Source of the DNA: an uncultured Verrucomicrobia subdivision 3 bacterium
Lineage (GTDB): Bacteria > Verrucomicrobiota > Verrucomicrobiia > Limisphaerales > UBA11358
DNA: 64,000 nucleotides
Assembly (NCBI GenBank): GCA_903889895.1
Contig: CAISYZ010000089.1
Coordinates: 69,274-133,273, forward strand
Direction: 5' to 3'
A model generated the notes under the pieces. The model was not told the DNA's origin and did not search any database. It saw only the letters and a list, made by a program, of their open reading frames with translations. Both the position numbers and the translations under genes were made by a program. Numbering within the stretch: position 1 is the first letter of the stretch; every line of letters begins with the position of its first letter. Of the stretch, positions 1,301-60,724 are shown piece after piece.

Positions 1301-1468
1301 GGAAAACTTAATCCTGCCAAGCGGGGGTGAAATTCTCAACTTCCCCGGCCGAACACCTGACCTAATTCCCCCGCCGCTGGAACCGAGGATGGCAATCCCA
1401 GAGCCGGGGATTGTAATTCCAGCCTCATGTATTGGCCGGTTGCAGCCTGGAAAGGCAATCCCCAAGCC
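1301..1468. repeat. Array A: 8 highly degenerate tandem units of 21 bp
   Basis: Units start at 1301,1322,1343,1364,1385,1406,1427,1448; recurrent ...AAT.CC...gCC at the same phase; reverse-strand translation gives a G.GIA.P-like heptad. Confidence 0.6.
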
Positions 1469-1488
1469 TTGTTTTCCATAATTATTTG

Positions 1489-2628
1489 CTAGTCGCCGTT
1501 GATTCCGCCACCGAATCTCCCATTATAGAAAGGCGACATCCCTGGCGCAGGTGTGGGCGGCGGCGGCAGCGGCTGCCCGCCATTTTGGTCAATGCAGACG
1601 GATCTGATTTCGTCAGCGGTAAGCGCGCGATTGTAAATGGCCAACTCATCCATCAGCCCGGAAAAGAACCGGTTGGAAGTCCAGTCGCCGGGATTGCCTG
1701 GCCGGTAGCTCGAAAGCAGACCTTTGGTGAGCAGGGAAAAGCTGCCCCACGGCCGTTGCGCCACAATGCTTCCGTTCACATACAAAATCAGAAGGCCGCT
1801 GTGCTTGTCGTAAGTGACGGCGATATGTTGCCATGCGTTCGCGACCAGCGTGCCGCCCGGCGAGGCGATTTGGACATAATGATTTTCGCTGCTGTCCCTG
1901 CCGCTGTTGTCCATGAAGAATCCGCACAAAACGCCTTGGCTTCCCGGATTTTGACCAATCCAAAATTGAACTCCGCCGGGCTGCCATTCCAGAATCGGAT
2001 GCAGGCCGGTTACATCCGACGGTTTAATCCACGCCGAAATGGTCATCCCATCGCCTTCGCCCACATTCAAAGCCGCGTTCTCTTGAATTTCAAAGTGCGG
2101 TGTGGTGCCGCCGAACGAAAACGCCTGACCCACTTTGCCGTCCGCAAAGGTGATGTCGGTCAAGGTTGCGTCGTTGCCGCCCACCGAATCGTGGCCGTCG
2201 CCCTCGGCGGACCACAGCGCCACCAAGCCGGCGGGCAGCTTGCCCGGAGCGCGGGTCGCAGACACCGTCAGATGCCGGATGGAATTCACCGCCAGCTCCA
2301 CTTTGCCGAAACCGGTTTTTACGCGCAGCGTCTCGCTGTCAAACCAGCCGGTTAGCACATCGCCGCTCGTGGTCGTGAGCTTGGCCGAATTGGTGGTGCC
2401 GCATTCAATGGCGCGGATGTCCTTCACCGCCAGCTTCAAAGTGCCGAGCAACGCCGAATCAAATTTAAGCTGGTCTTCCACGCTTTGGCCCACCACGCGG
2501 GAGCCGTCGCGCAGCTCAACCGTCAGGCGCGGCGACGAATTGTCCGCGGCGGCGGGTTCTGCGTTGGCAATACCAGAAAGCATCAGGGTGGCGATGGGAA
2601 GCAGCAGGAAGCGCAGAAGATTTTTCAT
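1489..2628 (-). CDS. Exported LamG/concanavalin A-like domain protein
   Basis: Signal peptide MKNLLRFLLLPIATLMLSGIANA; LamG features (GLVALWSAEGDGHDSVGGNDATL, MTISAWIKPSD, FFSGLMDELAIYNRALTADEI). Confidence 0.8.
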   Translation of the reverse strand: MKNLLRFLLLPIATLMLSGIANAEPAAADNSSPRLTVELRDGSRVVGQSVEDQLKFDSALLGTLKLAVKDIRAIECGTTNSAKLTTTSGDVLTGWFDSETLRVKTGFGKVELAVNSIRHLTVSATRAPGKLPAGLVALWSAEGDGHDSVGGNDATLTDITFADGKVGQAFSFGGTTPHFEIQENAALNVGEGDGMTISAWIKPSDVTGLHPILEWQPGGVQFWIGQNPGSQGVLCGFFMDNSGRDSSENHYVQIASPGGTLVANAWQHIAVTYDKHSGLLILYVNGSIVAQRPWGSFSLLTKGLLSSYRPGNPGDWTSNRFFSGLMDELAIYNRALTADEIRSVCIDQNGGQPLPPPPTPAPGMSPFYNGRFGGGINGD

Positions 2629-2685
2629 GGTATAATCGAATCTGGGTTTTGTGCCGGCAGCCGTCAAGTGTTTTAAGGACGCAAA

Positions 2686-3906
2686 TTATTTCTGCGCGGC
2701 GGCTAGCAGCTTCTGGAAATTTTCCTGCGCCGTTTCCCAACTCAATTCTTTTTTTAATTTCTCCCCGTCCAGCGCGGCCAGATAATTTTCCCCTGCGCGC
2801 TGTTTACGGATTTCGTCCTCGACCGTTTGCTTAAAAACTTCGGCATCGAACGGCGGCACATATCGCACCGCGTCGCCGAACACCGGCGGATAGCAGTCAA
2901 GCTTATAGGCGACGACCGGGACGCCCGCCACGAGCGCCTCGCCCACGACGATGCCCCAGCTTTCGTAATAACTCGGCATCGCGAACACGCGGCTGCTTTT
3001 GAGTAGACGAAATTTTTCTTCCTCGTTGACCAGCCCGCTGAAAGTCACCTGCTCCGTCAAGCCCAGATCGCGCACGACTGATTCGAGCGCGTCCTTGCTT
3101 TTGCCAATGATCACGGCGCGAAAATCCGGCAGCCGCGCTTTCAGCCAAGTTAGCGTCGCGAGCAAATCGGCGATGCCTTTTTGCGGATGCACGCGGCCAA
3201 CCCAGGCGAGATCGAATTTTTTCGGCTGCGCCGGCACGCGGTTGGCGGTGGCGGTGTCGCTGCCGTTCGGCACGTAACAAAGTTGTTTCGCGTCGTAGCC
3301 GAATTTCAGCAAATAATCGCGCATCTCCGGATGACTGTAAGTGACAAAGCCGTTTTTACATTTGCGAAACTGACGCAGCGAAAACTGCTGGCTCATCCAA
3401 TAATAAAGCGACGCCAGCCGCGTCGGCGTCACGTCCGCGCGGCTCTTGAACAAAACCTGTCGCAGCGTCGGCGCAATCATGCCGAGATACAAAATTTTCA
3501 CGCGCGCGCGGCAGCGCATCAGCGGAATCGTGTCAAACCAGTAATCCGACATCGCGTAGGCAAGGTCATCGGGTTTTACTTCGTCAAGCTGCGCCATCGC
3601 GCCGGCTTGCCGCCGCCGAAAATCTGCCAGCAGGCGGAATTGCCCGGCCAGGCTGCCAACGTCGCCGAGCTTGCCCATGCCGTCGTCCGTCAAAGTCAGG
3701 TTCAGCGGGAACTGGTTTTTTTCCAGATACCGCTTCAGCGCGTGGCCGCCAAAAAAATGAATTGGATAACCCGCCGCCAGCACCGCGCGGGCGATAAAAT
3801 AGAAATAAACATCGCCGCCGCCGATGCCCTCGCCAAAAATCCCGTTGACGAAACACACGACACGCGGAGGTTTTGCGGCGGAAGTTGGAGTGGTGGGTAT
3901 TTCCAT
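2686..3906 (-). CDS. Glycosyltransferase family 4
   Basis: ORF with WVGRVHPQKGIADLL and PSYYESWGIVVGEALVAGVPVVAY; start placed at MEIPTT. Confidence 0.85.
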   Translation of the reverse strand: MEIPTTPTSAAKPPRVVCFVNGIFGEGIGGGDVYFYFIARAVLAAGYPIHFFGGHALKRYLEKNQFPLNLTLTDDGMGKLGDVGSLAGQFRLLADFRRRQAGAMAQLDEVKPDDLAYAMSDYWFDTIPLMRCRARVKILYLGMIAPTLRQVLFKSRADVTPTRLASLYYWMSQQFSLRQFRKCKNGFVTYSHPEMRDYLLKFGYDAKQLCYVPNGSDTATANRVPAQPKKFDLAWVGRVHPQKGIADLLATLTWLKARLPDFRAVIIGKSKDALESVVRDLGLTEQVTFSGLVNEEEKFRLLKSSRVFAMPSYYESWGIVVGEALVAGVPVVAYKLDCYPPVFGDAVRYVPPFDAEVFKQTVEDEIRKQRAGENYLAALDGEKLKKELSWETAQENFQKLLAAAQK

Positions 3907-3907
3907 A

Positions 3908-4945
3908 TTAGCGTTCGGATTTGAGGTTTTGTTCCACCTGTAATTCCGCGATGAGCGACTTGTCCTGCCCGCGACGTTTGTAAGTCCACACGCCCCACGC
4001 ATTGCCGAGGACGCTCGCCGGACACGCCAGCAGATGCCAGAGCCAGCGGAAATCTTGGTCGCGAATAATTCCGCGCGCCGTGTGAAAGACGGGGCCAAAA
4101 AATGTGACGCAATAAACCGCCGCCAGCCACAGCGGCACCGGCGGTTTTTCCTTCATCCAGTTCACCGGCATTTCTTCCTGCACGCGGAGAAAATGCACCG
4201 TGGCACGCCGGCGTTTCTGCACAAATTTCCAGAGCGTTTGAATGTAGTAATGATGCACGCCGCGCCCGCGCAGCCGCAGCCATTCGCGCTGGCCGTTTTT
4301 CATCAGGAACAGCGCGATGTGCGTGTCCTGAAATTTTTCGTTTGCCTGCACCGATTGCAAGTCAGCGCGGCGGAAGACGAAGCCGTTTGCGCCGAGCGGA
4401 TAGGAAAAAGTATCGGGCGGCAGCATCCAGCGTTCCGCCTCGCCGTCGCGCGCGACGAGCAGCGGATTGGAACTCATTAGCCAGCAAACCGGGTCGCTGA
4501 TGTGCAGCAACGCGGTAAGATAGGCGCAGAAGGAAGTCATTTTGGGCGACGCTAAATAATACGCCTCCAGGCCGAGCGCCTGCGGATTTTTGGCGAGCGA
4601 TTCAACGGCGAGCGCAAAATAATCCGCGTGCGTGATTTCATTGTCGGCATCCACAAAAACGACGTATTCGCCGGTGGTGTGCTGGAGCGCGAGGCGTTTG
4701 CCTTCCTCCATATTTTTGCCGTTGTCGTCAAGGATTGTCGCGCCGAATTCTTTTGCGATGTCGCGCGTGCGGTCGGTGGAGTGCGCGTCGGCGAGGATGA
4801 TTTCAATTTGTTCGCGCGGATAATTTTGCCGCGCGATGGAGGCGAGGCAATTTTCCAAAATTGCCGCCGCGTTCAGCGTCGGGATGACGACGCTGATGCG
4901 GGGAAATTTTTTGGAGCCGGACGGCATGGGACAAGTCTGGCGCAA
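3908..4945 (-). CDS. Glycosyltransferase family 2
   Basis: RISVVIPTLNAAAILENCLASIARQ...VVFVDADNEITHADY. Confidence 0.88.
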   Translation of the reverse strand: MRQTCPMPSGSKKFPRISVVIPTLNAAAILENCLASIARQNYPREQIEIILADAHSTDRTRDIAKEFGATILDDNGKNMEEGKRLALQHTTGEYVVFVDADNEITHADYFALAVESLAKNPQALGLEAYYLASPKMTSFCAYLTALLHISDPVCWLMSSNPLLVARDGEAERWMLPPDTFSYPLGANGFVFRRADLQSVQANEKFQDTHIALFLMKNGQREWLRLRGRGVHHYYIQTLWKFVQKRRRATVHFLRVQEEMPVNWMKEKPPVPLWLAAVYCVTFFGPVFHTARGIIRDQDFRWLWHLLACPASVLGNAWGVWTYKRRGQDKSLIAELQVEQNLKSER

Positions 4946-4969
4946 ACGGCGGGCAAATTCAAACCAGCT

Positions 4970-6220
4970 TTATTCGATTGGTTTGTGCCGGCGCAGGACA
5001 TCAAGCCAGATAAGAAATAAAACGGTGAACGCCATGCCGGTGGCAACCGGCATGATGGCCAGCAGCGCGGCCGGTGTTTTACCCATGGCCAGCAAGGCCA
5101 GCCAGTAGGTCAGACCCAGCGCGCCAAAGCACAGGGAAACCTTCGTCCAGCGGCTTGCCAGCGCCCAGGTGCCAACGGCCTGTAGCAGTCCGACAAACAC
5201 CATGGTGGTGGCGAGCGAGCGGAGCATCTCGGCGGCTTCCGGTGTGTCTTTGCCGAGCAACCGCAGACAGAAATGCCGCAGCAGGAGTAGGCAGATAGCG
5301 CCACCGATGAGGGTGCCCGCAAAAAGCACGAGCAATTTTATCTGTTCCCGCAGGGCAGCGGCGGAGTGGGCCACGGAACGGGAGGTAAACAAAACCGTCA
5401 GCAGCGGGCCGACGGTCAGCGGCAGTGACACCGCCAGCCGTTCGGCGGCGGCGTAGGCGTCGCTGTCATTGTTGGAAAAGTAGCGCTGCATCACCATCAA
5501 GTCGCCTTGGGAAAAACAGTAGTTGCCTACGGCGAACGCGCCGCTCACGGTCAGATACAAAATAAATTCATGATTCCAAGGTGACACGGGCGCCAGCTGG
5601 CTGCGCGGCATCAGGTCTTTTTTCCACAGCAATAAAACCAGATACGCAAACAGGGCGACCGTTGACGCCATAACAGCGGTTTCCGGGGACGGCCAGGTGA
5701 GCGTGACAAAATAACCGAACGTTACGCGTAGCACCATGGATAGAAATCCAATCAGCGCGAGTCGCTTGAACCAAGCGAGACCCTGGCATAGGGCCGTCGC
5801 TAGTGAAGCCCACAGGCTGACCAGCGTGCAGATGAGCGTGATCAGCATCAATCCGGAATCGTAATGGAAGAACAGACTCAATGGCTTGACGATAATCACC
5901 GCGAGCAGCGAGCCGACAATGGTCAAGTGGAAGAGAAGCCGGCGACAGCCAGCAATCAGTCCCTGCAATCGTGCAGTATCACCGATGGCATTGAAATGCG
6001 CGATGTAATGAGTGATGGCCATGACGGCGACGGAGGGCAGCAGGCCGAGCAGCGGGATGAAGCCGTTGATGGCGCTGTTGGCATGTGCGTATTGGCCCGA
6101 CTCCTTGAGGTGGTGGCCCATGACGCTTTGAAACGCCAGGTTGCCAAGGCCGGTCAGGAAATTGACCGCTGAAAAGATGAGGCCGCTTTGCAGGATGCTT
6201 CCAATGCCGTTTTTTTTCAT
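4970..6220 (-). CDS. Polysaccharide/lipid flippase-like multi-pass membrane protein (MATE/Wzx-like)
   Basis: Multiple hydrophobic segments, position among glycosyltransferases, N-terminal ILQSGLIFSAVNFLTGLGNLAFQSVMG. Confidence 0.65.
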   Translation of the reverse strand: MKKNGIGSILQSGLIFSAVNFLTGLGNLAFQSVMGHHLKESGQYAHANSAINGFIPLLGLLPSVAVMAITHYIAHFNAIGDTARLQGLIAGCRRLLFHLTIVGSLLAVIIVKPLSLFFHYDSGLMLITLICTLVSLWASLATALCQGLAWFKRLALIGFLSMVLRVTFGYFVTLTWPSPETAVMASTVALFAYLVLLLWKKDLMPRSQLAPVSPWNHEFILYLTVSGAFAVGNYCFSQGDLMVMQRYFSNNDSDAYAAAERLAVSLPLTVGPLLTVLFTSRSVAHSAAALREQIKLLVLFAGTLIGGAICLLLLRHFCLRLLGKDTPEAAEMLRSLATTMVFVGLLQAVGTWALASRWTKVSLCFGALGLTYWLALLAMGKTPAALLAIMPVATGMAFTVLFLIWLDVLRRHKPIE

Positions 6221-6287
6221 TGGTGGGCAATAGGGCAGCTTTGGCTCATTGGCATCTTCATACGCTTTGCTGATCTGGCGGTGACAG

Positions 6288-7055
6288 TTAGCGATTTTGG
6301 GGCGGGAGTGGTTTGCGCGCCTTTAGCATCAGGTAGTGGCCGCGGTTCCTGATGAACATTTCAAGCTGCTGGCTCAAGCCATCCGGCAAGGGTAGGATGC
6401 TGACAGAACGTGCTTCAACAACCTGGAACCCAACCAGTTCAAAAAGTTCCTTTGCCTGTCGCACCGTGAGCACGCGCACGTGGCCGCCGATACCTGAAAA
6501 CGCGGGGTGATCGATCGGCACGGATTCCTCATGGGGTTCCATGTAGTGAAGGCCAAGTGGGTTGCCGAGGTATCGGCCGCAGGTTTGCATCAGCGAAAAT
6601 GGCGTATAGCCGAGAGATAGCGCGCACCAGTTGAGCAGGCTGCAAAGATTTTCCGTGGCGATGATGGTTGTGCCGCCGGGCTTGAGCACGCGGAAGGCTT
6701 CGGCGGCAAACAGCCGAGTATTATGCAAATGCTCAATGACTTGGTTGCCGAACACCACGTCAAACTGGCCATCTTCATAAGGCCAGCGACCATTCAGGTC
6801 AAAACTGGCAACTTTGAGCCCGCGCGCCTCAGCTTTGAGTTTCAACTCCGGTGCACCTTCGACGCCGTGAAAGTTGCACGGTTGATTTTTAAGGTGTCGG
6901 AACAGCAGGCTGCCGTCGCCACAGCCAACATCAAGCAAGCTATCGGGATTCAGGTTTGCCACCTGTTGGCCAGCCCAGGCGTCGCAGCGGTTGATACCCG
7001 CCTGCCGTGACCGAGCCACAGTGGCTTTGAGTTGATTGAGGATGAAATTAGCCAT
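6288..7055 (-). CDS. Class I SAM-dependent methyltransferase
   Basis: SLLDVGCGDGSLLFRHL ... FDVVFGNQVIEHLHNTRLFAAEAFRVLKPGG. Confidence 0.88.
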   Translation of the reverse strand: MANFILNQLKATVARSRQAGINRCDAWAGQQVANLNPDSLLDVGCGDGSLLFRHLKNQPCNFHGVEGAPELKLKAEARGLKVASFDLNGRWPYEDGQFDVVFGNQVIEHLHNTRLFAAEAFRVLKPGGTTIIATENLCSLLNWCALSLGYTPFSLMQTCGRYLGNPLGLHYMEPHEESVPIDHPAFSGIGGHVRVLTVRQAKELFELVGFQVVEARSVSILPLPDGLSQQLEMFIRNRGHYLMLKARKPLPPQNR

Positions 7056-7165
7056 TTAACCCTGACTAAGTATCAAGAAAAAGTCGGCACGGCAAATCCG
7101 AACAAAACAACTTTTCAAAAAAGTTGGCAAGCTCAGCGTTACAGACTAAACTTCTTATTCTCAAA

Positions 7166-16131: not shown

Positions 16132-16238
16132 GCGAATTTCAAATTACGAATTTCATCTGGCGAAGGGAAGCAAACAAAGTCAGCCGGCGCGCAGCCAAAG
16201 CCGGCCCGCCCGCCGCACGGGCGGGTTGTCTCGCCCCG

Positions 16239-16469
16239 AAAGACTGTCCGCCAGCCACAAAAGACTGCACGCGGACGGGAAAAGACTGCACGCTTTCGCC
16301 GTCAGACTATCATCTTTCCGCATTAGAATGCACGCCAACGGCAATAGCGTGCACGCTTTCCGAAAAAGCATGCACGCTAACGGAAAAAGCATGCACGCTA
16401 ACGCCGCCAGCGTGCACTCTTACGGCGAAAGAATGCACTCTAACGGAAAAAGAATGCACTCTTGCCCGC
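16239..16469. repeat. Array B: 11 tandem degenerate units of exactly 21 bp, consensus ~AAAGaaTGCACgCtaaCGgaa
   Basis: Units start at 16239,16260,...,16449 without indels, e.g. aaagcatgcacgctaacggaa / aaagaatgcactctaacggaa. Confidence 0.93.
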
Positions 16470-16570
16470 AAGAGCGCCTGATTTTAAGCGGGATTTTGCG
16501 AGAAAATGTCCAAATAATAGACACTTTCTCGGTTTTCCGGTAGGGGAAGGGGTATTTTTGGAGAATTTGC

Positions 16571-24397: not shown

Positions 24398-25573
24398 TCA
24401 GCCGGCGGCCTTGACTTGCTGCTTGAACTGCAAGGCCGCGAGCGCGTAGCCGCCGTCGTTGCCGTCAATGAAGTGGACGTGGCTTTCGCGCCGGAGCGAG
24501 AAGACCACGCACGTCATCAGCGCGCTGCCCGACCGGTGCGCGCCGTAGAATATGGCGCCCCGGCGGTGTTCCGCTTCGAGATAGGCCAGAATGTCCGCGA
24601 CTTTGCCGGCGGGAATGTCCAACACCATCCGCAGCAGGCCGTCAAACTTCCTGAAATCCGAGCGCGGCACGGAGGCGCGCTGGTAGCGGCGCGGATTGAA
24701 CCACGGCGCGGGAATGCCCGTGTTGAAGACGAACGCGCCGCCCAGCGAATGCGCCAGCGTGCGGGTCGCGGCCCAGCACCGCGCCAGCCACCCGCCAGTT
24801 CCGGCATGAGTGCGGGCTTCGAGGTCCAGCGTCTTCGGCGGCCAGCCCGTGTGCAGGGCGGAAACTTTCACCGGATTTAATTTTTCATCCGTCAGGCCGG
24901 TCAGTTCGCGCAGGCGGGCATAAAACTGTTGGTAATAGCGGTCCGCCTCCGCGCCGGCCAGCCGTGTCTGGACGAGCAGCGTCAGGATTTCACCGTTGGT
25001 CGAGGGCAGCGGTTCCCAGCGGCACGAAAGCCCGCTGACATCCGCATCGGGCGCGTCGGCGTCCGGTGGAATCAGGCAGGCGCTGCCGGGCGATTTGGTT
25101 TGCCGCTCGGCTTCGCTCAAGCCGGTGCCGCCGAGCATGGCCAGTTCCACCAAGCCGGCGGCGCGGTATTTCGCCGCTTCCACGGTGAAGCCGGCGGCGT
25201 GCAGTTCGCGCACCGGCACCCGGCCGATGCGCAGTTCGAGGGAAAATTGTTTCGCCGCCATCGCCGCGACGCCTTGCAGGGTCCGCTCGATGACGGGCGC
25301 GAGCGCGGCGGGTGCGGCGAGGGTCGCGCCGTCGCCGCCAAACACGAACGGCACCGACCCGGCGCGGCAGCGGTTCAGCACGGCGACAATGCACGCGGCG
25401 CCGACCATGTTGACCGCGCGATAAAGCCCGCGCGACAGCGCCTCGGTGGAATTGCTCACGTCCGCCACATAAATCACCCAGTCGTCGGGCAGGGGATGAT
25501 AATTGCCGCTGTCGAGGACGTGTTCGAATTCCGTCAGCGCCGGCAAATCCGCAAAGAAGTTCTCGCTGGGCAT
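24398..25573 (-). CDS. DUF3095-type (nucleotide cyclase-like) protein
   Basis: DWVIYVADVSNSTEALSRGLYRAVNMVGAACIVAVLN, FVFGGDGATLAAPA. Confidence 0.75.
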   Translation of the reverse strand: MPSENFFADLPALTEFEHVLDSGNYHPLPDDWVIYVADVSNSTEALSRGLYRAVNMVGAACIVAVLNRCRAGSVPFVFGGDGATLAAPAALAPVIERTLQGVAAMAAKQFSLELRIGRVPVRELHAAGFTVEAAKYRAAGLVELAMLGGTGLSEAERQTKSPGSACLIPPDADAPDADVSGLSCRWEPLPSTNGEILTLLVQTRLAGAEADRYYQQFYARLRELTGLTDEKLNPVKVSALHTGWPPKTLDLEARTHAGTGGWLARCWAATRTLAHSLGGAFVFNTGIPAPWFNPRRYQRASVPRSDFRKFDGLLRMVLDIPAGKVADILAYLEAEHRRGAIFYGAHRSGSALMTCVVFSLRRESHVHFIDGNDGGYALAALQFKQQVKAAG

Positions 25574-30020: not shown

Positions 30021-30098
30021 GGGCGGGAAGTTTCGAGTTTCAGGTTTCAAGTTTCAAGGAGATTTGACCGCGCCGCCGAATTTTCGCACACTCACCGC

Positions 30099-32630: not shown

Positions 32631-32649
32631 ATCCGCCGGAAGGGTGGCG

Positions 32650-32985
32650 GGCTGGCCCGGAAAAATCCCCGGCTGGCGGATTAAATCCTTTGGCTGGCCG
32701 TGAAAATTCTGCGGCTGGGAGTGAAAATTCCCTGGCTGACACACTACCAGCCTCGGCTGGCGCGCTTCCAGTCACGGCTGAAACACCTCCAGTCATGGCT
32801 GACTCACCTCCAGCCCCGGCTGGAACACCACCAACCGCGACTGGAACACTCCAAACTTCGGCTGGAACAGTCCCAGTCGCGACTGGAACACTTCCAGTCC
32901 CGGTTTATTCCGGGCCAGCCGGGGCTGGGACCGTTCAAACCGGGGAAATTTCGCTTCCAACCCGGGTGCAGGCCGGCGGGTTCTT
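32650..32985. repeat. Array C: about 14-16 tandem degenerate units of exactly 21 bp, consensus ~GGCTGGAACACTTCCAGTCSC
   Basis: ggctgg/gactgg-type anchors at 32650,32671,32692,32713,32734,32755,32776,32797,32818,32839,32860,32881,32902,32923; weaker to 32985. Confidence 0.93.
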
Positions 32986-33177
32986 GGGTGTTTCCACATC
33001 AAAATCAACCACTTATGGCATTCCTGCCGCCGTTGGCCCCGCCGAAGCCGGAGCCGGCCGGAAAAGAGGGGTTTGAGGCGAAATTGGGCGGTTTTGCGGC
33101 GGCCCCGGCCTTGGCCCCGGATTTCACAGACGGGTTTTGCAGCCTATCAGCTTGTTAGTCGGCAAAATCCTCATAAC

Positions 33178-33459
33178 TCAAACCTGCTTCGGATGCTTCT
33201 GACGAATAATCGCTGAAACCAAAATCCACAAGCAACAAATCACGCTCAAAAACATCCCAGCGAAAAACAAAATGATGCAGAGAAATGCCGTTGGGTCGAA
33301 TGTGCCGTCCATGCTGTTCCGAACGCCAGTCGGCGGAAAGCGTCGGGACAAATAATCAAAGCCGTGACCGGCAAACCAACCAACCGCCATCATCGCCAGC
33401 GAAATGTATAAAGCTATCCAGCGTGGGCTTCGGTAAGTCTGGATGGTTTCTGGTTTCAT
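33178..33459 (-). CDS. Small two-TM hypothetical membrane protein
   Basis: ORF with two hydrophobic helices. Confidence 0.5.
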   Translation of the reverse strand: MKPETIQTYRSPRWIALYISLAMMAVGWFAGHGFDYLSRRFPPTGVRNSMDGTFDPTAFLCIILFFAGMFLSVICCLWILVSAIIRQKHPKQV

Positions 33460-33584
33460 GTAACGCTCGCTTGCCGCCTAACGAAAAAAGAGCCGCCGCC
33501 GACTCGCGAGGTGAACCGCGACAGCGGAACGGACAGCGCCAACGGCGGTTGGCATTTGGTTGAGCCAAGGAGTATTCATGTTGG

Positions 33585-34010
33585 TCAAATCCGCTTCTCG
33601 TCGGCATCCAGCATGTCCACAAAGCATTTCACATCGTCGCGGTGGCCAATGCCGGCCTGTTCCTTGCGCATCTGCAGGCGGGCCACGGCGGAGGCGTCGC
33701 CGGGCAACGGGCGGCTCAGGACATCCTGCCAGTGCGCGGCCTTTTCCGCCGGCGTGCGCTTCACGTTCTGCCGCACCCAGTCGCAGACCTGCCCGTCGGT
33801 CAGGGAATTTTTCACCACCGCCACGAATTGTTCATGGGTCACACCGGCGGCCTTGAGCCAGAAGCCGTCGAACGCCTTGCCGAGATTTTCCTGGTAGTCG
33901 GCATGGAGCTTGCCCGCGAGGTGCAGGCGGATTTTGTCAACGTAGCGGGGCAGGTAATGCCAGCCGTCCATGGTTTCGCGCGGGCTGCGGGGATAAATGA
34001 TGTCGCTCAT
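33585..34010 (-). CDS. DUF5069-like protein
   Basis: YPRSPRETMDGWHYLPRYVDKIRLHLAGKL. Confidence 0.7.
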   Translation of the reverse strand: MSDIIYPRSPRETMDGWHYLPRYVDKIRLHLAGKLHADYQENLGKAFDGFWLKAAGVTHEQFVAVVKNSLTDGQVCDWVRQNVKRTPAEKAAHWQDVLSRPLPGDASAVARLQMRKEQAGIGHRDDVKCFVDMLDADEKRI

Positions 34011-38108: not shown

Positions 38109-38147
38109 CCGCCAATTGGAATTTGGCGATTGGAAATTGGAAATGAT

Positions 38148-43258: not shown

Positions 43259-43288
43259 GATTGGAAGTTGGGAGTTGGCAGATGGGAG

Positions 43289-44110
43289 TTAGGAAATAGT
43301 CGTGACGGAAATTTTATTTTTCTGGGCGAGTTCGGTGCAGGCTTCGCGTTCGAGCAAAAGCGATTTGCCGGATTCCAGCGCGAGCACGGAAATTTTCGCG
43401 ACGGCGCAGGTTTCAAACGTTTTCGCGCCGATGCACGGGATGTCGAAGCGCATGTCGTGATTCAGCTTGGCGACTTTCACGGCCACCGCGCCGCCATTTT
43501 TGCCGGCGAGTTCGCCGCCGCGCGCGAGGCATTTGTCCGTGCCTTCAAAACCTTCCACGGCCAGCACCGTGCCGTCTTTCACGACGACAAGCTGGCCGAT
43601 TTCCAGCCGCGAAATTTCCTTGGCAATCTTGAAACCAAATTCCACATCCGCCTTTTGCGCGTCGGAAAGTTTCGGGCCGAGCGCAAAGCCGTTCTGCGGC
43701 ATCAGCGGCGCGAGCCACGGCGTCGCTTCGATGAGTTCCACGCCGTCCTTTTGCAACTCGGTGGCAATCGCACCGAAAATGGAGTGGGCATTTTTTTCTT
43801 TCAGCCGCATCAGGACGCCGAGCGCGCGCAGGTCGGGGCGCAGATCAAAAAGATTTTTCGGCGCGACTTGGCCGGCCATGACGCATTGTTTAACGCCGCG
43901 ACTGGTGAACGCCGAAATCATTTTTCCAAGCTGCCCGACGTTGAGCCAGACGATGTCGTCCACGAGCGATGCGAGCGCGGGATCGGTCTCGCCTTCGACG
44001 GCGGTGGCGACGATGCGCTTGATGCCGGCAGCGCGGGCGAGGCGCGCGAATTCCAGCGGCAGCGTGCGGCTGCCGGCAATGAGGCCGATGGATTCGAGCG
44101 CGAGATTCAT
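43289..44110 (-). CDS. lpxI: UDP-2,3-diacylglucosamine diphosphatase LpxI
   Basis: IGLIAGSRTLPLEFARLARAAG...GEVAPKNLF-like region (MAGQVAPKNLFDLRPD)...CIGAKTFETCA. Confidence 0.85.
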   Translation of the reverse strand: MNLALESIGLIAGSRTLPLEFARLARAAGIKRIVATAVEGETDPALASLVDDIVWLNVGQLGKMISAFTSRGVKQCVMAGQVAPKNLFDLRPDLRALGVLMRLKEKNAHSIFGAIATELQKDGVELIEATPWLAPLMPQNGFALGPKLSDAQKADVEFGFKIAKEISRLEIGQLVVVKDGTVLAVEGFEGTDKCLARGGELAGKNGGAVAVKVAKLNHDMRFDIPCIGAKTFETCAVAKISVLALESGKSLLLEREACTELAQKNKISVTTIS

Positions 44111-52429: not shown

Positions 52430-52618
52430 GGCGGGTTCCGGGCGGAAGCCGGACGCCTCCGGCTTTAATCCGGACGCTTCCGGACTTGTTCCGGACACCT
52501 CCGGAACTTCCCCGACAGCCTCCGGACTTGTCCCGGACGTCTCCGGAACTTCCCCGACGGCTTCCGGACTTGTTCCGGACGCCTCCGGAACTTCCCCGAC
52601 AGCTTCCGGACTTGTCCC
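52430..52618. repeat. Array D: 9 tandem 21-bp units with 42-bp higher-order structure
   Basis: Units at 52430,52451,52472,52493,52514,52535,52556,52577,52598; three near-identical 42-mers at 52493,52535,52577. Confidence 0.95.
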
Positions 52619-52625
52619 GGAGACG

Positions 52626-52681
52626 TAAAAACTCCGCCCGGAACCGTCCAAACATAGTTTGGACGGTGGCGAAACGGAGTT
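52626..52681 (-). terminator. Two-tier hairpin terminator of the 52699 gene
   Basis: Minus strand AACTCCG..CCGTCCAAAC-TAT-GTTTGGACGG..CGGAGTT followed by TTT. Confidence 0.75.
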
Positions 52682-52698: not shown

Positions 52699-53181
52699 TC
52701 AGGGCGTCGGTTTGGCCGGTGCCGGCGCTGGCGTTTCGTGGTGGGCAGCGGGGCGGACGCTTTTGCGCAGGTTGATGGCTTCTTGCGCTTGGGAGCTACC
52801 ACGGCCAAACGCGGTGATGACCATGTCGCAACCGTTGCTGGCGTCGTTGTAAGCCGTCGCGACGGCGTCGTTCACGACGATGGTGGCGTCCTTCAACTGT
52901 GTCTTGATGCCTTCCTGCACATCGTTGGCATCCGACACGGCTTTGGATTCGACCGGGAGCTGGGCGATGATGTCGGTCGGGTCCACCTTCGCGGCAATCA
53001 TCTGCGTTTTATACTTGGCCAGCATCGCCGCCGTGCTGGCACAGAAGCCGACCACTTCGTTGGCCGGATACGTTACTTTTGGTTTGTTCATTTGTATTAC
53101 GGGAGCTTTTTTGGGACCCCAAACAGCGCCCGGCGCATTCCAACACGTTCCGTCGTCATATTTGGGAACAAAAGTGCTCAT
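52699..53181 (-). CDS. Hypothetical protein
   Basis: ORF MSTFVPKYDDGTCWNAPG...; no recognised family. Confidence 0.5.
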   Translation of the reverse strand: MSTFVPKYDDGTCWNAPGAVWGPKKAPVIQMNKPKVTYPANEVVGFCASTAAMLAKYKTQMIAAKVDPTDIIAQLPVESKAVSDANDVQEGIKTQLKDATIVVNDAVATAYNDASNGCDMVITAFGRGSSQAQEAINLRKSVRPAAHHETPAPAPAKPTP

Positions 53182-54290: not shown

Positions 54291-54815
54291 TCAGGCCGAA
54301 GGCGGTTTCGGCGCGTGTTCGGTCTGCCAGGTGATGAGGAAAATCAGGCCGACGCCGGTGCAGATGGCGGTGTCCGCGATGTTGAAGGCGGGGAAGCCGA
54401 GTTCACCGCCGCCGCGCTGGAGAATGTAGAAGTAAAGAAAATCAATGACCTCGTGGCGGTCGGGCAGGAGGCGGTCGGTGAGATTGCCGGCGATGCCGCC
54501 GAAGATGAGGCCGAAGGCGATCTGGCCCGGGAGCGTGTGGGAATTAAAATGGTGTCGGGTAAGAAAGAGCGCGACGAACGCCAGCAGCGCCACGAAGGCG
54601 AGGGCCCCGTTGTTGCCGCGAAACAGGCTCCACGCGGCGCCGGTGTTGCCCCAGTGGACGAATTTAAAGAAGCCGGGGATGATGATTTTTTCGTCGCCCT
54701 TCTCGAGCAGGTTCAGCACGAGCCATTTGGTGAACTGGTCGAGGATGAACACCACCGCCGCGAGGATGGCGATGTAGCGGTTGGACTTGTTAAAGATGGG
54801 GCCGGCGGGTGCCAT
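54291..54815 (-). CDS. lspA: Lipoprotein signal peptidase
   Basis: LDQFTKWLVLNLL; GGIAGNLTDRLLPDRHEVIDFLYFYI; FNIADTAICTGV. Confidence 0.92.
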   Translation of the reverse strand: MAPAGPIFNKSNRYIAILAAVVFILDQFTKWLVLNLLEKGDEKIIIPGFFKFVHWGNTGAAWSLFRGNNGALAFVALLAFVALFLTRHHFNSHTLPGQIAFGLIFGGIAGNLTDRLLPDRHEVIDFLYFYILQRGGGELGFPAFNIADTAICTGVGLIFLITWQTEHAPKPPSA

Positions 54816-54915
54816 GCGATTTCAAACCATTAAACCGCAAGCCGCGCCAAAGCTAAAGCCATTTCACCGGCGGGAAAATCCTTTGCCGTCGGCGCGGAGC
54901 CACTAAACTAGGCGC

Positions 54916-55383
54916 ATGGCGTTGGTGCGCATCCTGATTGACGGCTATTCGCTGCTCCACAGTTGGCCGGAGCTGGCGGAGGGCGCGCCCCGGCATTCGG
55001 AGACCGCGCGCGATGCGCTGGTGGAACTGCTCCAGCAATATCAAGACGCGTGCGGCACGCCGGTGACCATCTTCTTCGACGGTCGCGGCTCGCGCCGGAA
55101 GCCGAAGAACGAATCCGGCACGGCGGTGGAGGTGCTGTTTTCCAGTTCCGGCCAGACGGCGGATGATTTAATCGAGCGCGCGGCGCATCGTTTCCAACCC
55201 TACGGCGAGGTGCTGGCGGTGACGGACGATTTTGCCGTCCGCGATACGGTGGGCGGCTTCAACGGATCGGTGGCAAGCTGCGGCAATTTCATTGCGATGA
55301 TCCAGAATGCGCTGGCGAACTTGCAGGAAAACCTGAACAATCACAATCGCTCCGAACGAAACCGGTTTTTTCGGTCGCGTTGA
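54916..55383 (+). CDS. NYN-domain (YacP-like) protein
   Basis: LIDGYSLLHSWPEL; VTIFFDGRGS; TADDLIERAA; VTDDFAVRDTV. Confidence 0.82.
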   Translation: MALVRILIDGYSLLHSWPELAEGAPRHSETARDALVELLQQYQDACGTPVTIFFDGRGSRRKPKNESGTAVEVLFSSSGQTADDLIERAAHRFQPYGEVLAVTDDFAVRDTVGGFNGSVASCGNFIAMIQNALANLQENLNNHNRSERNRFFRSR

Positions 55384-55386
55384 AAC

Positions 55387-56502
55387 ATGAAACTGTCGCG
55401 ACAAAACTATTTTTCCATCCTCGCCCGCTGGCAATGGGCGCTGCTGGCGTTGCTGCTGTTGCCCGCCGGTGTGGTCACGTCTGCCGAGGTGCCGGGGCGC
55501 TGGCTGTTCGTCTTCGAACTGTCGCCCGCGATGGAAAAGCGGCTGCCGGCGACGGCGGAAGTTTTGCAAAACCTGCTCGCGAACGAAGGGCGCGTGCATT
55601 TGCAGGAGGGCGACAGTATCGGGGTCTGGACGTGCGGGCCCACGCTGGGTGCCGGCCAGTTTCCGCTGACGACCTGGCGCGCGGCGCAGGCGACGGCGCT
55701 GACGAGCAACCTGCTGGATTTTCTGCAGACGCAAAAATACACAAGCGCGGCGCGGCTGGCGGTGCTGGCACCTACGCTGGAAGGCGTGGTGGCCGATTCG
55801 CCGCGCCTGACGGTGGTGATTTTTTGCGCCGGGGAAAATCCCGTCTCCGGCACGACTTATGATACCGGCATCAACCTGACGCTGCAGGAGGGCCGCGCGG
55901 AGCGGAAGAAAAAAAGCCAGCCGTTCGTGGTCGTGATGCGTTCGCTGGCGGGAAAATACATTGGTTGCACGGTGAGCTTTCCGCCATCCGCCATCAATTT
56001 GCCGCCGTTTCCGCTGCCGCCCGCGCCGCCCAGCAATCCGCCGCCGGTGCGGGTGGCCGCGCCGACGAAGCCGGTGAGTGCGCCGGTGGTGCCAAGCTTG
56101 GTCATTGTCGGCACCAAGGTCACCGGCCCGCTGGCCGAACCGCCCGCGTCGGCAACAGCAGCTGTTAGTCCGCCGCCGGTTGAGCCGCCGAAACTGGTGG
56201 AAGTTGCCGCGCCGGCTCTCGCGCCAGTGGCTGCGGCTCCCATTGCGCCGGTGAAGTCGCTCATCTTGCAGGGACCCGCGCCGGTCCCAGTCAAAGTGGC
56301 GCCACCCTTGCCACCGCCGCCGACCAATTCGCCGGCGGCGGCCACTGAAAAGACCGACCGGGAGTCGCGGCGGTTAATTTACATTGCCGTGGGTTTATTT
56401 GTGGTGGTGGTCATCGTCGGCGTGGTGATCTTCCGTGCCGGGCGGCGGCCGCAGACGAGCCTGATCACGAGTTCGATGCAGGACGACCCGCGCCGGAAAT
56501 GA
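55387..56502 (+). CDS. Hypothetical protein with N-terminal signal, Pro/Ala-rich linker and C-terminal TM helix
   Basis: ORF translation; LIYIAVGLFVVVVIVGVVIF near C-terminus. Confidence 0.6.
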   Translation: MKLSRQNYFSILARWQWALLALLLLPAGVVTSAEVPGRWLFVFELSPAMEKRLPATAEVLQNLLANEGRVHLQEGDSIGVWTCGPTLGAGQFPLTTWRAAQATALTSNLLDFLQTQKYTSAARLAVLAPTLEGVVADSPRLTVVIFCAGENPVSGTTYDTGINLTLQEGRAERKKKSQPFVVVMRSLAGKYIGCTVSFPPSAINLPPFPLPPAPPSNPPPVRVAAPTKPVSAPVVPSLVIVGTKVTGPLAEPPASATAAVSPPPVEPPKLVEVAAPALAPVAAAPIAPVKSLILQGPAPVPVKVAPPLPPPPTNSPAAATEKTDRESRRLIYIAVGLFVVVVIVGVVIFRAGRRPQTSLITSSMQDDPRRK

Positions 56503-56552
56503 TTTTATTCTGCGCGTGACTTTTGGCCGCGCCTGTGGAAAATTTCGCGCTC

Positions 56553-57167
56553 ATGAAAGCCATTTCTTTTCTCTGTGCGCTCGGTCTGTTGACCGCCAGC
56601 GCTTTTGCCGAGGACGCCACCACCAATGCGCCGGCCGCCGCGCCCGCCGCTGCCCCCGCGAAGGCCGCCGACGAGGTCGCCATCATCAAGACGAGCGAAG
56701 GCACGCTGGTCGTGGAGTTTTATCCCGACGTCGCGCCGAACCACGTCGCGAATTTCAAGAAGCTCGCGCGGCAGGGATTTTATGACGGCCAGTGTTTTCA
56801 CCGCGTCATCAAGGGTTTCATGATCCAGGGCGGCGACCCAAACACGAAGGATGACGCGAAGAAGGATTCGTGGGGCCAGGGCGGCCCGGGCTACACCATC
56901 AACGCGGAGTTCAACGCCAAGCATCACGCGCGCGGCATCCTCTCGATGGCGCGCACGCCGGATCCGAATTCCGCCGGCAGCCAGTTTTTCATCTGCCACG
57001 GCGATGCGGGTTTTCTCGACAACCAATACACGGTGTTCGGCAACCTGATCAAGGGCTACGACGTGCTGGACAAGATTGCCAATACGCCGACGGAAGGTCC
57101 CGACCGTCCGGTGAAGCGCGTCAACATTGACAGCGTCAAAATCGTGCCCGCTGACAGCGTTAAATAA
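56553..57167 (+). CDS. Exported cyclophilin-type peptidyl-prolyl isomerase
   Basis: Signal peptide MKAISFLCALGLLTASAFA; FHRVIKGFMIQGGDP; GSQFFICHGDAGFLDNQYTVFG. Confidence 0.92.
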   Translation: MKAISFLCALGLLTASAFAEDATTNAPAAAPAAAPAKAADEVAIIKTSEGTLVVEFYPDVAPNHVANFKKLARQGFYDGQCFHRVIKGFMIQGGDPNTKDDAKKDSWGQGGPGYTINAEFNAKHHARGILSMARTPDPNSAGSQFFICHGDAGFLDNQYTVFGNLIKGYDVLDKIANTPTEGPDRPVKRVNIDSVKIVPADSVK

Positions 57168-57191
57168 TTTTCCCATCAACCAAAATATATT

Positions 57192-57692
57192 ATGAGTGAA
57201 GTTGCCATTCTTACCACCAGCGCCGGCGAAATCGTCCTTGAATTCTGGCCGGACGTTGCGCCGGGCCACGTTAAAAATTTCATCGACCTCGCGAAGAAAG
57301 GTTTTTACGACGGCACGGCTTTTCACCGCGTCATCAAGGGTTTTATGATCCAGGGCGGCGATCCGCTGACGAAAGATGATTCCAAGCAGCGCGCTTGGGG
57401 CACGGGCGGTCCCGGCCACCAAATCAAAGCCGAGTTCAACGACAAGCCGCACGTTCGCGGCGTGCTTTCGATGGCGCGCTCGAATGATCCGAATTCCGCC
57501 GGCTCGCAGTTTTTCATCTGCCACGGCGATCCGCGTTTTCTGGACCGCCAATACACGGCGTTCGGCAAGCTTATCAAGGGCGACGATGTGCTGGAAAAAA
57601 TCGCCACCACGCCCACGGTGCCCGGCGACCGGCCCGTGACGAAGCAGACGCTCATCAGTGTGAAAATCGTCGCGGCCGATGCGGTGAAATAA
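57192..57692 (+). CDS. Cyclophilin-type peptidyl-prolyl isomerase (cytoplasmic paralogue)
   Basis: FHRVIKGFMIQGGDPLTKDD; GSQFFICHGDPRFLDRQYTAFG. Confidence 0.93.
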   Translation: MSEVAILTTSAGEIVLEFWPDVAPGHVKNFIDLAKKGFYDGTAFHRVIKGFMIQGGDPLTKDDSKQRAWGTGGPGHQIKAEFNDKPHVRGVLSMARSNDPNSAGSQFFICHGDPRFLDRQYTAFGKLIKGDDVLEKIATTPTVPGDRPVTKQTLISVKIVAADAVK

Positions 57693-57712
57693 ATTTCATT
57701 TGCGGAATTTTC

Positions 57713-57746
57713 AAGGCGCGGAATTTATTCCGCGCCTTTTTATTTT
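57713..57746 (+). terminator. Rho-independent terminator
   Basis: AAGGCGCGGAAT-tt-ATTCCGCGCCTT followed by TTTATTTTT. Confidence 0.9.
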
Positions 57747-57806
57747 TGGAATCGCCGCGACGTTTCCCGCCTTTACTTGCGACAAAAATGAAGTAGATAT
57801 TTCGCC

Positions 57807-58427
57807 ATGAATAATTCGATCATTCCGTATCCGACCGTCATCGAGCAGACCGCGCGCGGCGAGCGCCAGTTCGACATTTTTTCGCGGCTGTTGGTTGACC
57901 GCATCATCTTTCTCGGCACGCCGGTGGACGACGGCATCGCCAATGTCATTGTGGCTCAGCTTTTGTTTTTACAGATGGCCGATCCTAAGAAAGACATTCA
58001 TTTCTACATCAATTCGCCCGGTGGCAGCGTGTCGGCGGGGCTGGCGATTTACGACACGATGCAATACACCACATGCGACATTAACACTTACTGCATCGGC
58101 CAAGCGGCGAGCATGGGCGCGGTGCTGCTGTCCGGCGGCACGAAGGGCAAACGCTTTGCGCTGCCGAACTCCAACATCATGATTCATCAGGTGCTCGGCG
58201 GCGCGGAAGGCCAGGCGAGCGACGTGGAAATCCGCGTGAAATACATGCTGAAACTCAAGCAGCGCTTGAACACGATTCTCGCTAAGCACAGCGGTCAAAC
58301 TTATGACGTGGTGGAAAAAGCCTGCGACCGCGACAATTTCATGAGCGCCGAGGAGGCCAAGGCCTTCGGCCTCGTGGATCACGTCGTGCAATCGCGCAAG
58401 GATCTGCCGGGTGCGGAAAAAGTTTAA
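57807..58427 (+). CDS. clpP: ATP-dependent Clp protease proteolytic subunit
   Basis: [48 protein letters not shown]. Confidence 0.96.
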
Positions 58428-59014
58428 GGCCGCGAAACGAACGGGTTATCTTTGATGTAAAAGCGGAGCAACCGTTTTGCCCAGTGTTGCGCGTAGTCAA
58501 CGCCAATGCGCGGGCGCTTGACGACGGAAATTCTCTCCGCGACTTCCGGCTCGGCTATGAAAAGCTCATCGCTCAACAAATCATGGCCGTTGAGCCGCCG
58601 GTCAATTTCCATCGCGCGGCACAGCAAGCCCGGCCCACTGGTTTTGCCCGGAAGATTTTTCACTGGTTCAACCGCGCGCAACAAAACCGCCGCGCCGTTG
58701 CCTTCGCGTTCCGTCACGACGTTCATGCAATGGTGCATGCCGTAAATCAAATAGACGTAGGCAAACCCCGGTGGGCCAAACATGATTTTGGTGCGTTCGG
58801 TCCGGCCTTTGGAAGAATGGGCGGCGAGATCGTGTTCGCCGAGATACGCCTCGACCTCGACAATTTTCCCGATGCGCTCGATTTTGGCGGACTGGAGAAC
58901 GAGCAATTTGCCGAGCAATTCCTGCGCGACGATCACGGTGTCGCGGTCATAAAATGGGCGCGGCAGTTTTTGCACGCGCAAGACTGGCGCAATTCCCGGT
59001 TTGACAGGAAGCAA
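58424..59014 (-). CDS. 3-methyladenine DNA glycosylase (AAG/MPG family)
   Basis: [71 protein letters not shown]. Confidence 0.92.
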
Positions 59015-59045
59015 AATGTGCGCAAAATGATTGCCCGTTTCGGTG

Positions 59046-59122
59046 GCCAGCGTAGCTCAGTTGGTTAGAGCGTGGGACTCATAAGCCCGAGGTCAGTGGT
59101 TCGATTCCACTCGCTGGCACCA
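59046..59122 (+). tRNA. tRNA-Met (anticodon CAU), CCA encoded
   Basis: gccagcg acceptor pairs with cgctggc; D-arm gctcagttggttagagc; loop ctCATaa; T-arm ggttcgattcc; CCA. Confidence 0.92.
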
Positions 59123-59131
59123 TTCCGGTTC

Positions 59132-59206
59132 GGGCGCTTGGCGCAGTGGTAGCGCTGCTCCTTTACACGGAGAAGGTCGCAGGTTCGAATCCTGCAGTGC
59201 CCACCA
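59132..59206 (+). tRNA. tRNA-Val (anticodon UAC), CCA encoded
   Basis: gggcgct/agtgccc acceptor; anticodon loop ttTACac; ggttcgaatcc T-arm; CCA. Confidence 0.93.
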
Positions 59207-59207
59207 T

Positions 59208-60359
59208 TCAAATTTTTTCCAGCGTCCCATCGTGGTGCAGCTTCAACTTGGTGCCGCGCCACTCCACCGTGTTACCGGCGAACGCCGCCAGCCAAATCGC
59301 CGCCGCCAGCAAATCCTTTACCGGCACCAGCCACGCGGGGGAAATTAATTTTCCACCCGGCGTGAAACGGCATTGCAAATTTTGCGCCAGAAGAATTCGC
59401 ACCAGCAAAAAGACAATTGCCACCAGTGGCGCATAGAAAGTATTGGCGGTGGTCAATAAAATACCTAGCCACAGCAGCGGCCACAGCGAGGCGTTTGCGA
59501 CAATGCTGAAAAAATACGGCAGCGGCTGGCAGACGCGGATGGTGCGTGCCCAGCGCAGTTGATGCTGCCAGACCTGCCGCCAGTTCATCGGCGCGCTCCA
59601 GCATTCGACGACGACGGGGCAGAGCGCGATGGCGTGGCCGCTTTTGGCGATGCGCTGGCCGAGTTGGTAATCGTCGGCCAGATGGTCGGCAAACGCGGCG
59701 AACCCGCCGATTTGCGCGAGCGCATTGCGGCGCACCAGCAGCGCGGCACCGAGCGCGAAATCAAGCGGCTTCAAGGTTTGCGACTGCAAGACTTGGCTCC
59801 AGAAATCGGCGTTGACGGCGACGGCTTCCCAGCGCATCGCGTTGGTCGTCGGGTTGGCGAGCCGGTAAAAACAATTCACCAGCGCGATTTTTTCAGCGCG
59901 CAATGGCGAAACAAAATTGGTGAGAAAATCCGCTGGCACACGCACGTCGGCGTCGCAGGTGAGAATCAAATCGTGCCGTGCGAGTTTTTCCAATTGGGCG
60001 AGCTTGGCGACCTTGGCATTGGTGCCGGTGAGGTTCTGGCAAATAACCAACCGCGCGTTGGCGGCGGGATGTTCGGCGAGCAGGTTGCGGACGATTTCAT
60101 TAACCGGATCATTTTCATCCGCAACCCCGAAGAGGATTTCCACCGGCCCGGCATAATTTTGCCGGAGCCAGCTTTGCAACGATTCGCGGGTGGTGGCGTC
60201 GCAGCCTTTGAGCGGCTTGAGAATGGAAACTGCCGGGGCAAAATTTTCCCCGGCGGTTTTTTGGTGCAGGGGAAATTTTTGCGCGGCCAGCCATTGCCAA
60301 AACAGGATGCCGCAGCTCAACGCCGCGAGCGCCCCAAAAATAGTTGCCAGAAAAATCAC
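59208..60359 (-). CDS. Family 2 glycosyltransferase, ceramide glucosyltransferase/HpnI-like
   Basis: VSILKPLKGCDATTRESLQSWLRQNY; LTCDADVRVPADFL; QHQLRWARTIR; C-terminal TM helices. Confidence 0.8.
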   Translation of the reverse strand: MIFLATIFGALAALSCGILFWQWLAAQKFPLHQKTAGENFAPAVSILKPLKGCDATTRESLQSWLRQNYAGPVEILFGVADENDPVNEIVRNLLAEHPAANARLVICQNLTGTNAKVAKLAQLEKLARHDLILTCDADVRVPADFLTNFVSPLRAEKIALVNCFYRLANPTTNAMRWEAVAVNADFWSQVLQSQTLKPLDFALGAALLVRRNALAQIGGFAAFADHLADDYQLGQRIAKSGHAIALCPVVVECWSAPMNWRQVWQHQLRWARTIRVCQPLPYFFSIVANASLWPLLWLGILLTTANTFYAPLVAIVFLLVRILLAQNLQCRFTPGGKLISPAWLVPVKDLLAAAIWLAAFAGNTVEWRGTKLKLHHDGTLEKI

Positions 60360-60428
60360 CGCGCAGAGGAAACCGGAATTTCGGTGTTTTAACCAGTGTC
60401 TTTTTTGCGCTGGTTGACGGAGGCTTCC

Positions 60429-60724
60429 GGGTTTTCCGGCGCGCCGGGAAGGTTTTCCGCCCCGGCCTCAAGGTTATTTGCTCCGCCTGCAAGGTTATTT
60501 GGGGCGCCGTCAAGGTTATGCGTTCCGCCGTGGAGGTTATTTGGGCCGGACCCAAGGTTTTGCGGAAGGCAGACAAGGTTATCCGTCCCGCGCTCAAGGT
60601 TTTTTCCTTCGCACTCCAGGTTATTTAAAGCGGACCCAAGGTTATTTGCTCCGCCGAGAAGGTTATTTACGCCGGACTCGAGGTTTTTTGTGATAAATAA
60701 CCTACTCTGCGGAATAAATAACCT
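60429..60724. repeat. Array E: 13 direct 21-bp units (consensus ~AGGTTATTTGcTCCGcCgnCA) plus two 21-bp-spaced inverted copies
   Basis: aggtt anchors at 60429,60450,...,60681 every 21 bp; inverted aaataacct at 60695 and 60716. Confidence 0.95.

Follow-up and report, generated by a model that had tools for sequence, protein, structure and literature searches.

We have found that arrays of 21-bp tandem repeats are dispersed through the non-coding DNA of a Limisphaerales (Verrucomicrobiota subdivision 3) MAG and of its relatives. The observed parts are the array itself, a fixed pitch, dyad symmetry, A-tract phasing, an association with small-protein genes and a fast turnover of motifs. These observations suggest an undescribed DNA-protein system with a length rule that matches the helical twist of DNA, and no known family fits it. 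We propose, tentatively, that the arrays represent a new class of chromosomal gene-array module in which selection would act on helical pitch (21 bp, or two turns) and dyad symmetry and hardly on sequence. The array would be quickly rewritten or swapped while the W-leader, helical and FN3 families co-diversify as putative array-binding or array-shaping proteins. The finding links a genome-wide 21-bp non-coding signal with small FN3-like families of no assigned function. No such arrays were found in the open-access literature, and degenerate, length-conserved arrays are missed by identity-based repeat finders.

Five arrays lie in the window, by which we mean the whole stretch of 64,000 nucleotides that was analysed (positions carry no strand unless one is given). 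A preliminary description had presented them as genuine 21-bp repeats, each with its own consensus and all outside coding sequences, and in these respects it was correct. Scored against dinucleotide shuffles over the boundaries first drawn, arrays 2, 3, 4 and 5 gave z = 19.7, 21.7, 17.6 and 20.8 (18-22 when rounded), and they were recovered by TRF and a lag scan with a period of 21 or 42. Array 1 (1301-1468), a weak, decayed 21-bp array in a convergent intergenic region, gave z = 4.7 (p < 0.001). Its score was reached by just 6 of 1665 array-free intergenic tiles, and it is therefore weak but probably genuine. Consensus sequences and GC content differ between arrays, and the gene caller placed 0 of the 5 inside any gene. 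The arrays had also been placed just past gene 3' ends, which describes part of them; arrays 2 and 5 are also found upstream of a gene, 37-84 bp from its start, and elsewhere the arrays mostly occur at the 5' ends of one gene family.

Array 2 (16174-16472) starts at about 16174, earlier than the 16239 first reported, and consists of ~14 units of 21 bp with the core AAAAGACTGCACGC. An orthologous array in the same register is present in another genome (G016, locus L187), and the corresponding site in G014 and others holds no array. Array 3 (32640-32975) has ~16 units with the dyad core CCAGCCNNGGCTGG; AAAATT recurs every 21 bp in its left units, and its dyad motif recurs at L250, upstream of a family gene. 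Array 4 (52443-52631) comprises 9 units with the core CCGGACNNCTCCGG in a 42-bp higher-order repeat, differs from its orthologue at L040 by exactly 42 bp, and sits directly downstream of the gene at 52699-53181 (minus strand). Array 5 is made of 12 direct units with the core AAGGTTATTT (60443-60694, plus strand) and, after a turn (GGTTTTTTGTGATAAATAACC), two inverted units (AAATAACCTAC; 60695-60736, minus strand). This forward-turn-inverted order also occurs in six arrays from five other genomes, and inverted units were seen only in the AAGGTTATTT type. The flank of array 5 (60767-60845), with T-tracts ~10 and 21 bp apart, is common to same-motif arrays at L216, L217 and L221, and at L221 such a flank sits between array and gene. 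Array 5 matches gene-bearing copies elsewhere; queried against its own genome, it matched only itself. Arrays 1, 2, 3 and 5 are solo, without a family gene, and array 4 retains its gene. No decayed family genes were found beside solo arrays by tblastn.

The dominant lags in the intergenic DNA of the host are 21, 42, 63, 84, 105 and 126. The preliminary description had considered that other periods might be equally common; in the non-coding DNA of this genome none is as common as 21. Separate 7-bp arrays also exist. Dozens of 21-bp arrays occur in the host and its relatives, and 400 kb of a genome from the same genus that lacks the gene family contain zero non-coding arrays. Many arrays, including the four in the window, have no neighbouring family gene. 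A period of 21 equals seven codons, and one lag-42 match in G001 does come from a genuine coding repeat, that of a coiled coil. A reading of the arrays as coding heptad repeats is nonetheless disfavoured and exceedingly improbable, given stops in all six frames of several arrays, no genes found at arrays by the gene caller, and only a modest excess of open frames (42 vs 29 expected). A plasmid or viral origin was also rejected, with no plasmid match, nothing useful from viral scans, and negative PHROGs and PADLOC results for the linked proteins.

Across 50 arrays, 11 of 577 unit steps (1.9%) depart from multiples of 21, to which the remaining 98% conform. The exact, indel-free period claimed earlier holds for the window, where the register is exact, and is relaxed slightly elsewhere. 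Units diverge over their entire length, with 29% substitutions per site and 3774 substitutions vs 11 indels (indel/substitution ratio 0.003). Array copy number changes by whole units, 42- and 63-bp higher-order repeats occur, and near-perfect arrays are found in the genome G306. These last features would suit neutral satellite DNA, made and homogenised by slippage and unequal exchange, with 21 bp as an accident inherited from old copies. We consider this improbable, as a single period is kept by unrelated motifs across families and a class, the indel/substitution ratio is very low, unit length hardly varies, and slippage predicts neither phased A-tracts nor an association with genes.

Dyad symmetry is present in the unit consensus of 38 of the 50 arrays (p <= 0.05); motifs of the array 5 type can be non-palindromic. 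Palindromic units in 5' or 3' untranslated positions could also act as RNA, in the form of UTR hairpin arrays that terminate, stabilise or regulate transcripts. This reading is disfavoured and very unlikely: the sense strand has no G.U bias (G.T 699 vs A.C 704), the arms show no compensatory covariation (z = -1.2), Rfam has no match at the arrays, and an exact spacing of 21 is unnecessary for RNA hairpins.

In the DNA flanking the arrays, A-tract spacing peaks at 10, 20, 30 and 40 bp, and the phasing has a vector strength of 0.5-0.6 vs 0.1-0.2 in controls (0 of 500 permutations), GC-rich order-level copies being excluded for having too few tracts. Two turns of B-DNA span 21 bp. The earlier suggestion of a conserved length with an unconstrained sequence, pointing to the DNA helix, is supported by the scarcity of indels, the unit dyads and the helically phased flanking A-tracts. 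The same phasing would be expected of a sequence-independent structural platform, in which the 21-bp repetition and A-tracts bend DNA or present one face, shape is all that is read, by RNA polymerase or by a general nucleoid protein (HU, Fis or histone type), and the adjacent protein has no part in recognition. Motifs without a common sequence, their widely different GC content and the non-palindromic motifs of the array 5 type would agree with it. We regard this account as somewhat unlikely, since individual arrays retain a specific core that is highly informative column by column, dyad symmetry greatly exceeds chance and would not be required for bending alone, and the association with genes would be left unexplained.

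In a genus search, an upstream 21-bp array was found at 35 of 41 homologues of a family of small W-rich/helical/FN3-like proteins, vs 6 of 400 background genes (Fisher p 2e-39), and homologues from other families and from another class likewise have an array in front of them. In an order-wide sample, an array was found at 14 of 24 family genes, most exceptions being fragmentary matches. A helical-only subfamily instead has the array just downstream of the gene (n = 5). The window gene at 52699-53181 (minus strand) belongs here, encoding a 160-aa protein with a W-rich leader and predicted helices, and in its homologues the stop codon is followed, after 14-22 bp, by a 21-bp array. A structure model of the window protein from two sequences was of low confidence (pLDDT 49). 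The FN3-type and helical proteins linked to arrays had no recognised DNA-binding domain, RHH or HTH (Pfam, NCBIfam). Two arrays adjoin ArsR-like HTH genes.

The pair of array and gene occurs at loci that differ between genomes. Motif similarity tracks protein similarity for close orthologues only, paralogues being near background, and in the G306 trio N-terminal protein divergence does not follow motif identity. Paralogues with unrelated motifs and one invariant pitch provide a natural experiment that separates the needs of a DNA-protein array (geometry) from what it is free to change (sequence). Two G306 copies (L306 and L311) have left flanks 97% identical and downstream DNA 90% identical, but the arrays between them are unrelated, although their register is the same. 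Replacement of a motif between flanks this similar keeps alive the idea of a dedicated diversification or cassette system that writes or swaps arrays, like CRISPR adaptation or diversity-generating elements, with an enzyme setting the 21 bp. Such a system is quite improbable: no common writing enzyme was found beside arrays, orthologues keep their motif, so that writing would be rare, and homologous recombination between paralogous loci could equally swap arrays.

Judged from sequence, it is plausible, if well short of assured, that the arrays are helically phased arrays of dyad binding sites and the putative target of the neighbouring gene's product. They would be the DNA component, acting in cis, of a gene-array module dispersed in Verrucomicrobiota, and each consists of ~8-28 copies, in direct orientation, of a 21-bp site that is mostly dyad-symmetric. 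With 21 bp being two turns of B-DNA, all sites would face the same side of the helix, and phased, intrinsically bent A-tract DNA flanks the array in many copies. A protein dimer, for which the neighbouring gene's product or a partner is the likeliest candidate, may cover the array cooperatively, forming a wrapped filament or solenoid, and work as an operator with many sites or as a centromere-like anchor. Selection would keep the spacing because it sets this geometry, while base sequence would drift or be swapped together with the recognising protein. The window would then hold four solo copies and, in array 4, one still with its gene. What weighs against this reading is that the FN3-type and helical proteins have no recognised DNA-binding domain, that motif similarity goes with protein similarity in close orthologues only, and that many arrays stand without a family gene. 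The preliminary interpretation had the helix and conserved length at its core, which is supported; it had not seen the gene-array module or the motif turnover inside conserved elements.

Among known systems, REP/BIME elements (RAYT transposases) are likewise dispersed intergenic palindromic repeats near gene ends, but REPs have one sequence per genome, whereas the 21-bp arrays have none in common. Conserved and variable parts alternate regularly in L113 and array 5, as in CRISPR/guide arrays; most arrays, however, lack a separate repeat/spacer pattern, and the unit is too short. No cas genes were found among the neighbours read, PADLOC was negative for the linked proteins, and these had no Pfam match to the Nop5-type domain of TIGR-Tas. 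In plasmid iterons, direct repeats lie next to rep at intervals of about two helical turns, and inverted half-copies occur close to its promoter. The arrays resemble iterons in their two-turn direct repeats and, for the array 5 type, in inverted copies near a gene, but they number in the dozens, are chromosomal and have motifs unrelated to one another; no Rep-type Pfam/NCBIfam match was found beside them. In ParR-parC (type II) and other plasmid centromeres, the operon has an array of direct repeats upstream, families differ in the sequence and spacing of these repeats, and 10-, 11- or 20-bp repeats lead to a helical nucleoprotein ring (PMC9426499; PMC5016525). Here too, tandem direct repeats adjoin a gene, mostly upstream and, in the helical subfamily, downstream. 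The linked FN3-type and helical proteins include no RHH/HTH adaptor, and the neighbour genes read include no actin-like (ParM-like) or tubulin-like motor. The arrays described here are instead chromosomal and many per genome, with a single 21-bp pitch, free sequence and dyad units. The TAACTGA heptamers of Beggiatoaceae are also short fixed-length tandem repeats, many per genome and often just upstream of start codons (PMC4679880). Their 7-bp unit has a fixed sequence, whereas the present arrays combine fixed length with free sequence and are linked to specific gene families.

The 21-bp periodicity claimed in the preliminary description is real. Arrays 2-5 (window positions 16174-16472, 32640-32975, 52443-52631 and 60443-60736) were recovered at period 21 or 42 by TRF and by a lag-identity scan. 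Relative to dinucleotide shuffles, using the array limits of that description, they gave z of 17.6-21.7, while for array 1 (1301-1468), already flagged there as weak, the period was supported at a low z of 4.7. The window spans contig positions 69274-133273 of an assembly that comprises 4.14 Mb in 260 contigs and is 76% complete; its relatives, identified via a hemL-type aminotransferase, are Verrucomicrobia subdivision 3/Limisphaerales MAGs. Intergenic self-identity in 530 kb of this genome peaked at lags 21, 42, 63, 84, 105 and 126 (z 8-13), with neighbouring lags far lower. Thirteen strong non-coding arrays were counted in the 530 kb examined, in MAG assemblies where repeats may be collapsed and with genes called by a home-made caller. 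Each had its own motif, in agreement with the earlier claim of differing consensus sequences. In 400 kb of a same-genus genome (G001), zero non-coding 21-bp arrays of such strength were found, the sole strong lag-42 match being a coding coiled coil. Short degenerate arrays of period 7 or 14 with unrelated sequences also occur in the window (30028-30058, AAGTTTC; 38114-38144, AATTGGA; 43261-43295, TTGGGAG; 16132-16164, GCGAATTTCAAATG), and comparable 7-bp arrays occupy intergenic regions of G001 and another genome, G016; these short arrays make up a second class by length, likewise free in sequence. An ARAGORN tRNA-Sec call at 24681-24758(-), within a long protein-coding ORF, is probably false.

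Neighbouring genes revealed a frequent arrangement in which an array precedes the gene for a small protein, helical in its N-terminal part and FN3-like in its C-terminal part; in many cases a W-rich leader comes first (e.g. TWDSG..WDDPNL.WG). One such protein has six full-length paralogues in the window's genome, and an array was located 110-300 bp upstream of all six. In a larger set, 35 of 41 homologues had an upstream array, versus 6/400 other genes of that genome (Fisher p 2e-39, indicative only, since relatedness among the copies makes them statistically non-independent). In a profile search with the family alignment, only 6 of 289 genomes of the phylum yielded members, and a search of G001 gave no match. 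Arrays preceded most members found in G306, G137, G340 and G083, the last from another class, with few other arrays around the sampled member loci. Order-wide, 14 of 24 eligible matches had an array, most misses being fragmentary or broken genes. A second small conserved gene (MPFDPSLPQANTEIDAEQMRDQLNALNDDIQ... or MAYDPNFPPNHQALASAPWRDQFNSLKAL...) follows the family gene at L306, L308 and L311, there at a distance of ~150 bp, and at L241. At L253:637-742, L354:2870-2985 and L355:2560-2690, the 21-bp array of a module is directly preceded by a near-perfect tandem array with a unit of 8 bp (GCGCAACC)n or 17 bp. Two ArsR-like helix-turn-helix genes, L093:13959-14309(+) and L089:3357-3674(-), have 21-bp arrays ~30-40 bp upstream and are candidate array-binding regulators. 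An array also adjoins the gene for a 240-aa protein (L093:4256-4978(-)) whose match to NCBIfam NF052641 'PQLLE family' is weak (E 2e-8, short of the cut-off); no paper on that family was found in the open-access literature.

In the window itself, the product of the module gene (52699-53181(-)) is 160 aa long, carries a W-rich leader and is predicted to contain helices; the single structure model was poor. In five homologues from the genus, a 21-bp array starts within ~22 bp of the stop codon, the place array 4 occupies in the window, and such an array was absent from an intact homologue and from a broken gene. No family gene, intact or decayed, was recognisable beside arrays 2, 3 or 5. The array 3 dyad, CCAGCC/GGCTGG, recurs in the array upstream of a family gene in L250. 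An open frame missing from the gene list, coding for a small membrane protein, lies between array 3 and the DUF5069 gene (32990-33585(-); MKPETIQTYRSPRWIALYISLAMMAVGWFAGHGFDYL...).

Spacing had been described as indel-free. Fifty gene-linked arrays contained 629 units (mean 12.6 per array), in which 28.6% of sites differed from consensus but only 11/577 unit steps departed from multiples of 21, in a parse that penalises such steps and so misses some slips at array ends. The indel deficit is large even with this bias, although strict absence of indels does not hold. The orthologue of array 4 in L040, with flanks ~80-90% identical, differs in length by exactly 42 bp, or two units. Array 2 has a G016 orthologue of identical register and similar core, and its site is empty in other relatives. 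The arrays are thus old enough for different species to have them in common, yet patchy in presence. Array 5 is of a dispersed type: its motif, AAGGTTATTT, was found in six 21-bp arrays of five other genomes, only one at the orthologous place. All AAGGTTATTT arrays run from direct units through a turn to inverted units. Three (L216, L217 and L221) also have in common a downstream segment that matches window 60767-60845. The array is followed by a 231-aa gene in L219 and L221, the two proteins being 68% identical.

Motifs turn over within conserved surroundings. At three paralogous loci of G306, the left flank is 97-98% identical and ~1.27 kb of downstream DNA 87-90% identical; the L306 array is unrelated to that of L308/L311, and register is identical. 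Synonymous sites are saturated, or close to it, in the first 70 codons of these family genes (C-terminal dS 0.13-0.25), and this N-terminal divergence did not track array motif. Across all pairs, motif sharing was restricted to close orthologues.

Consensus units were self-complementary beyond column permutation in 38 of the 50 gene-linked arrays at p<=0.05 (31 at <=0.01). Such dyads could be read as RNA hairpins; because G.T mismatches (699) equalled A.C mismatches (704) and the arms of array units did not covary, that reading is disfavoured, and the symmetry is a property of the DNA, as for dimer sites. Within 110 bp of the arrays, A or T runs of >=4 were spaced at 10, 20, 30 and 40 bp. Among arrays with enough tracts (GC-rich order-level copies have too few), phasing vector strength was 0.5-0.6 on both flanks, also for 20 other arrays (0/500 permutations), versus 0.1-0.2 in array-free controls. 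Phasing of A-tracts is linked to intrinsic curvature of DNA (PMC3940949). Under the strongest rival explanation, the arrays would serve a general nucleoid protein as a platform recognised by shape alone. We favour a dimeric protein, with the linked gene's product as the simplest candidate, that would line up on one array face, with constant selection acting on geometry rather than sequence.

The arrays and linked proteins fail membership in centromere or iteron systems, because no known DNA-binding domain was found in the FN3-type and helical proteins, and neither a motor gene nor a Rep gene was seen among the neighbours. The nearest working analogy is nonetheless an array of the centromere or iteron kind: the repeats of parC similarly adjoin their own operon and differ between families (PMC9426499), and ParR assembles on its repeats into a helical ring (PMC5016525).
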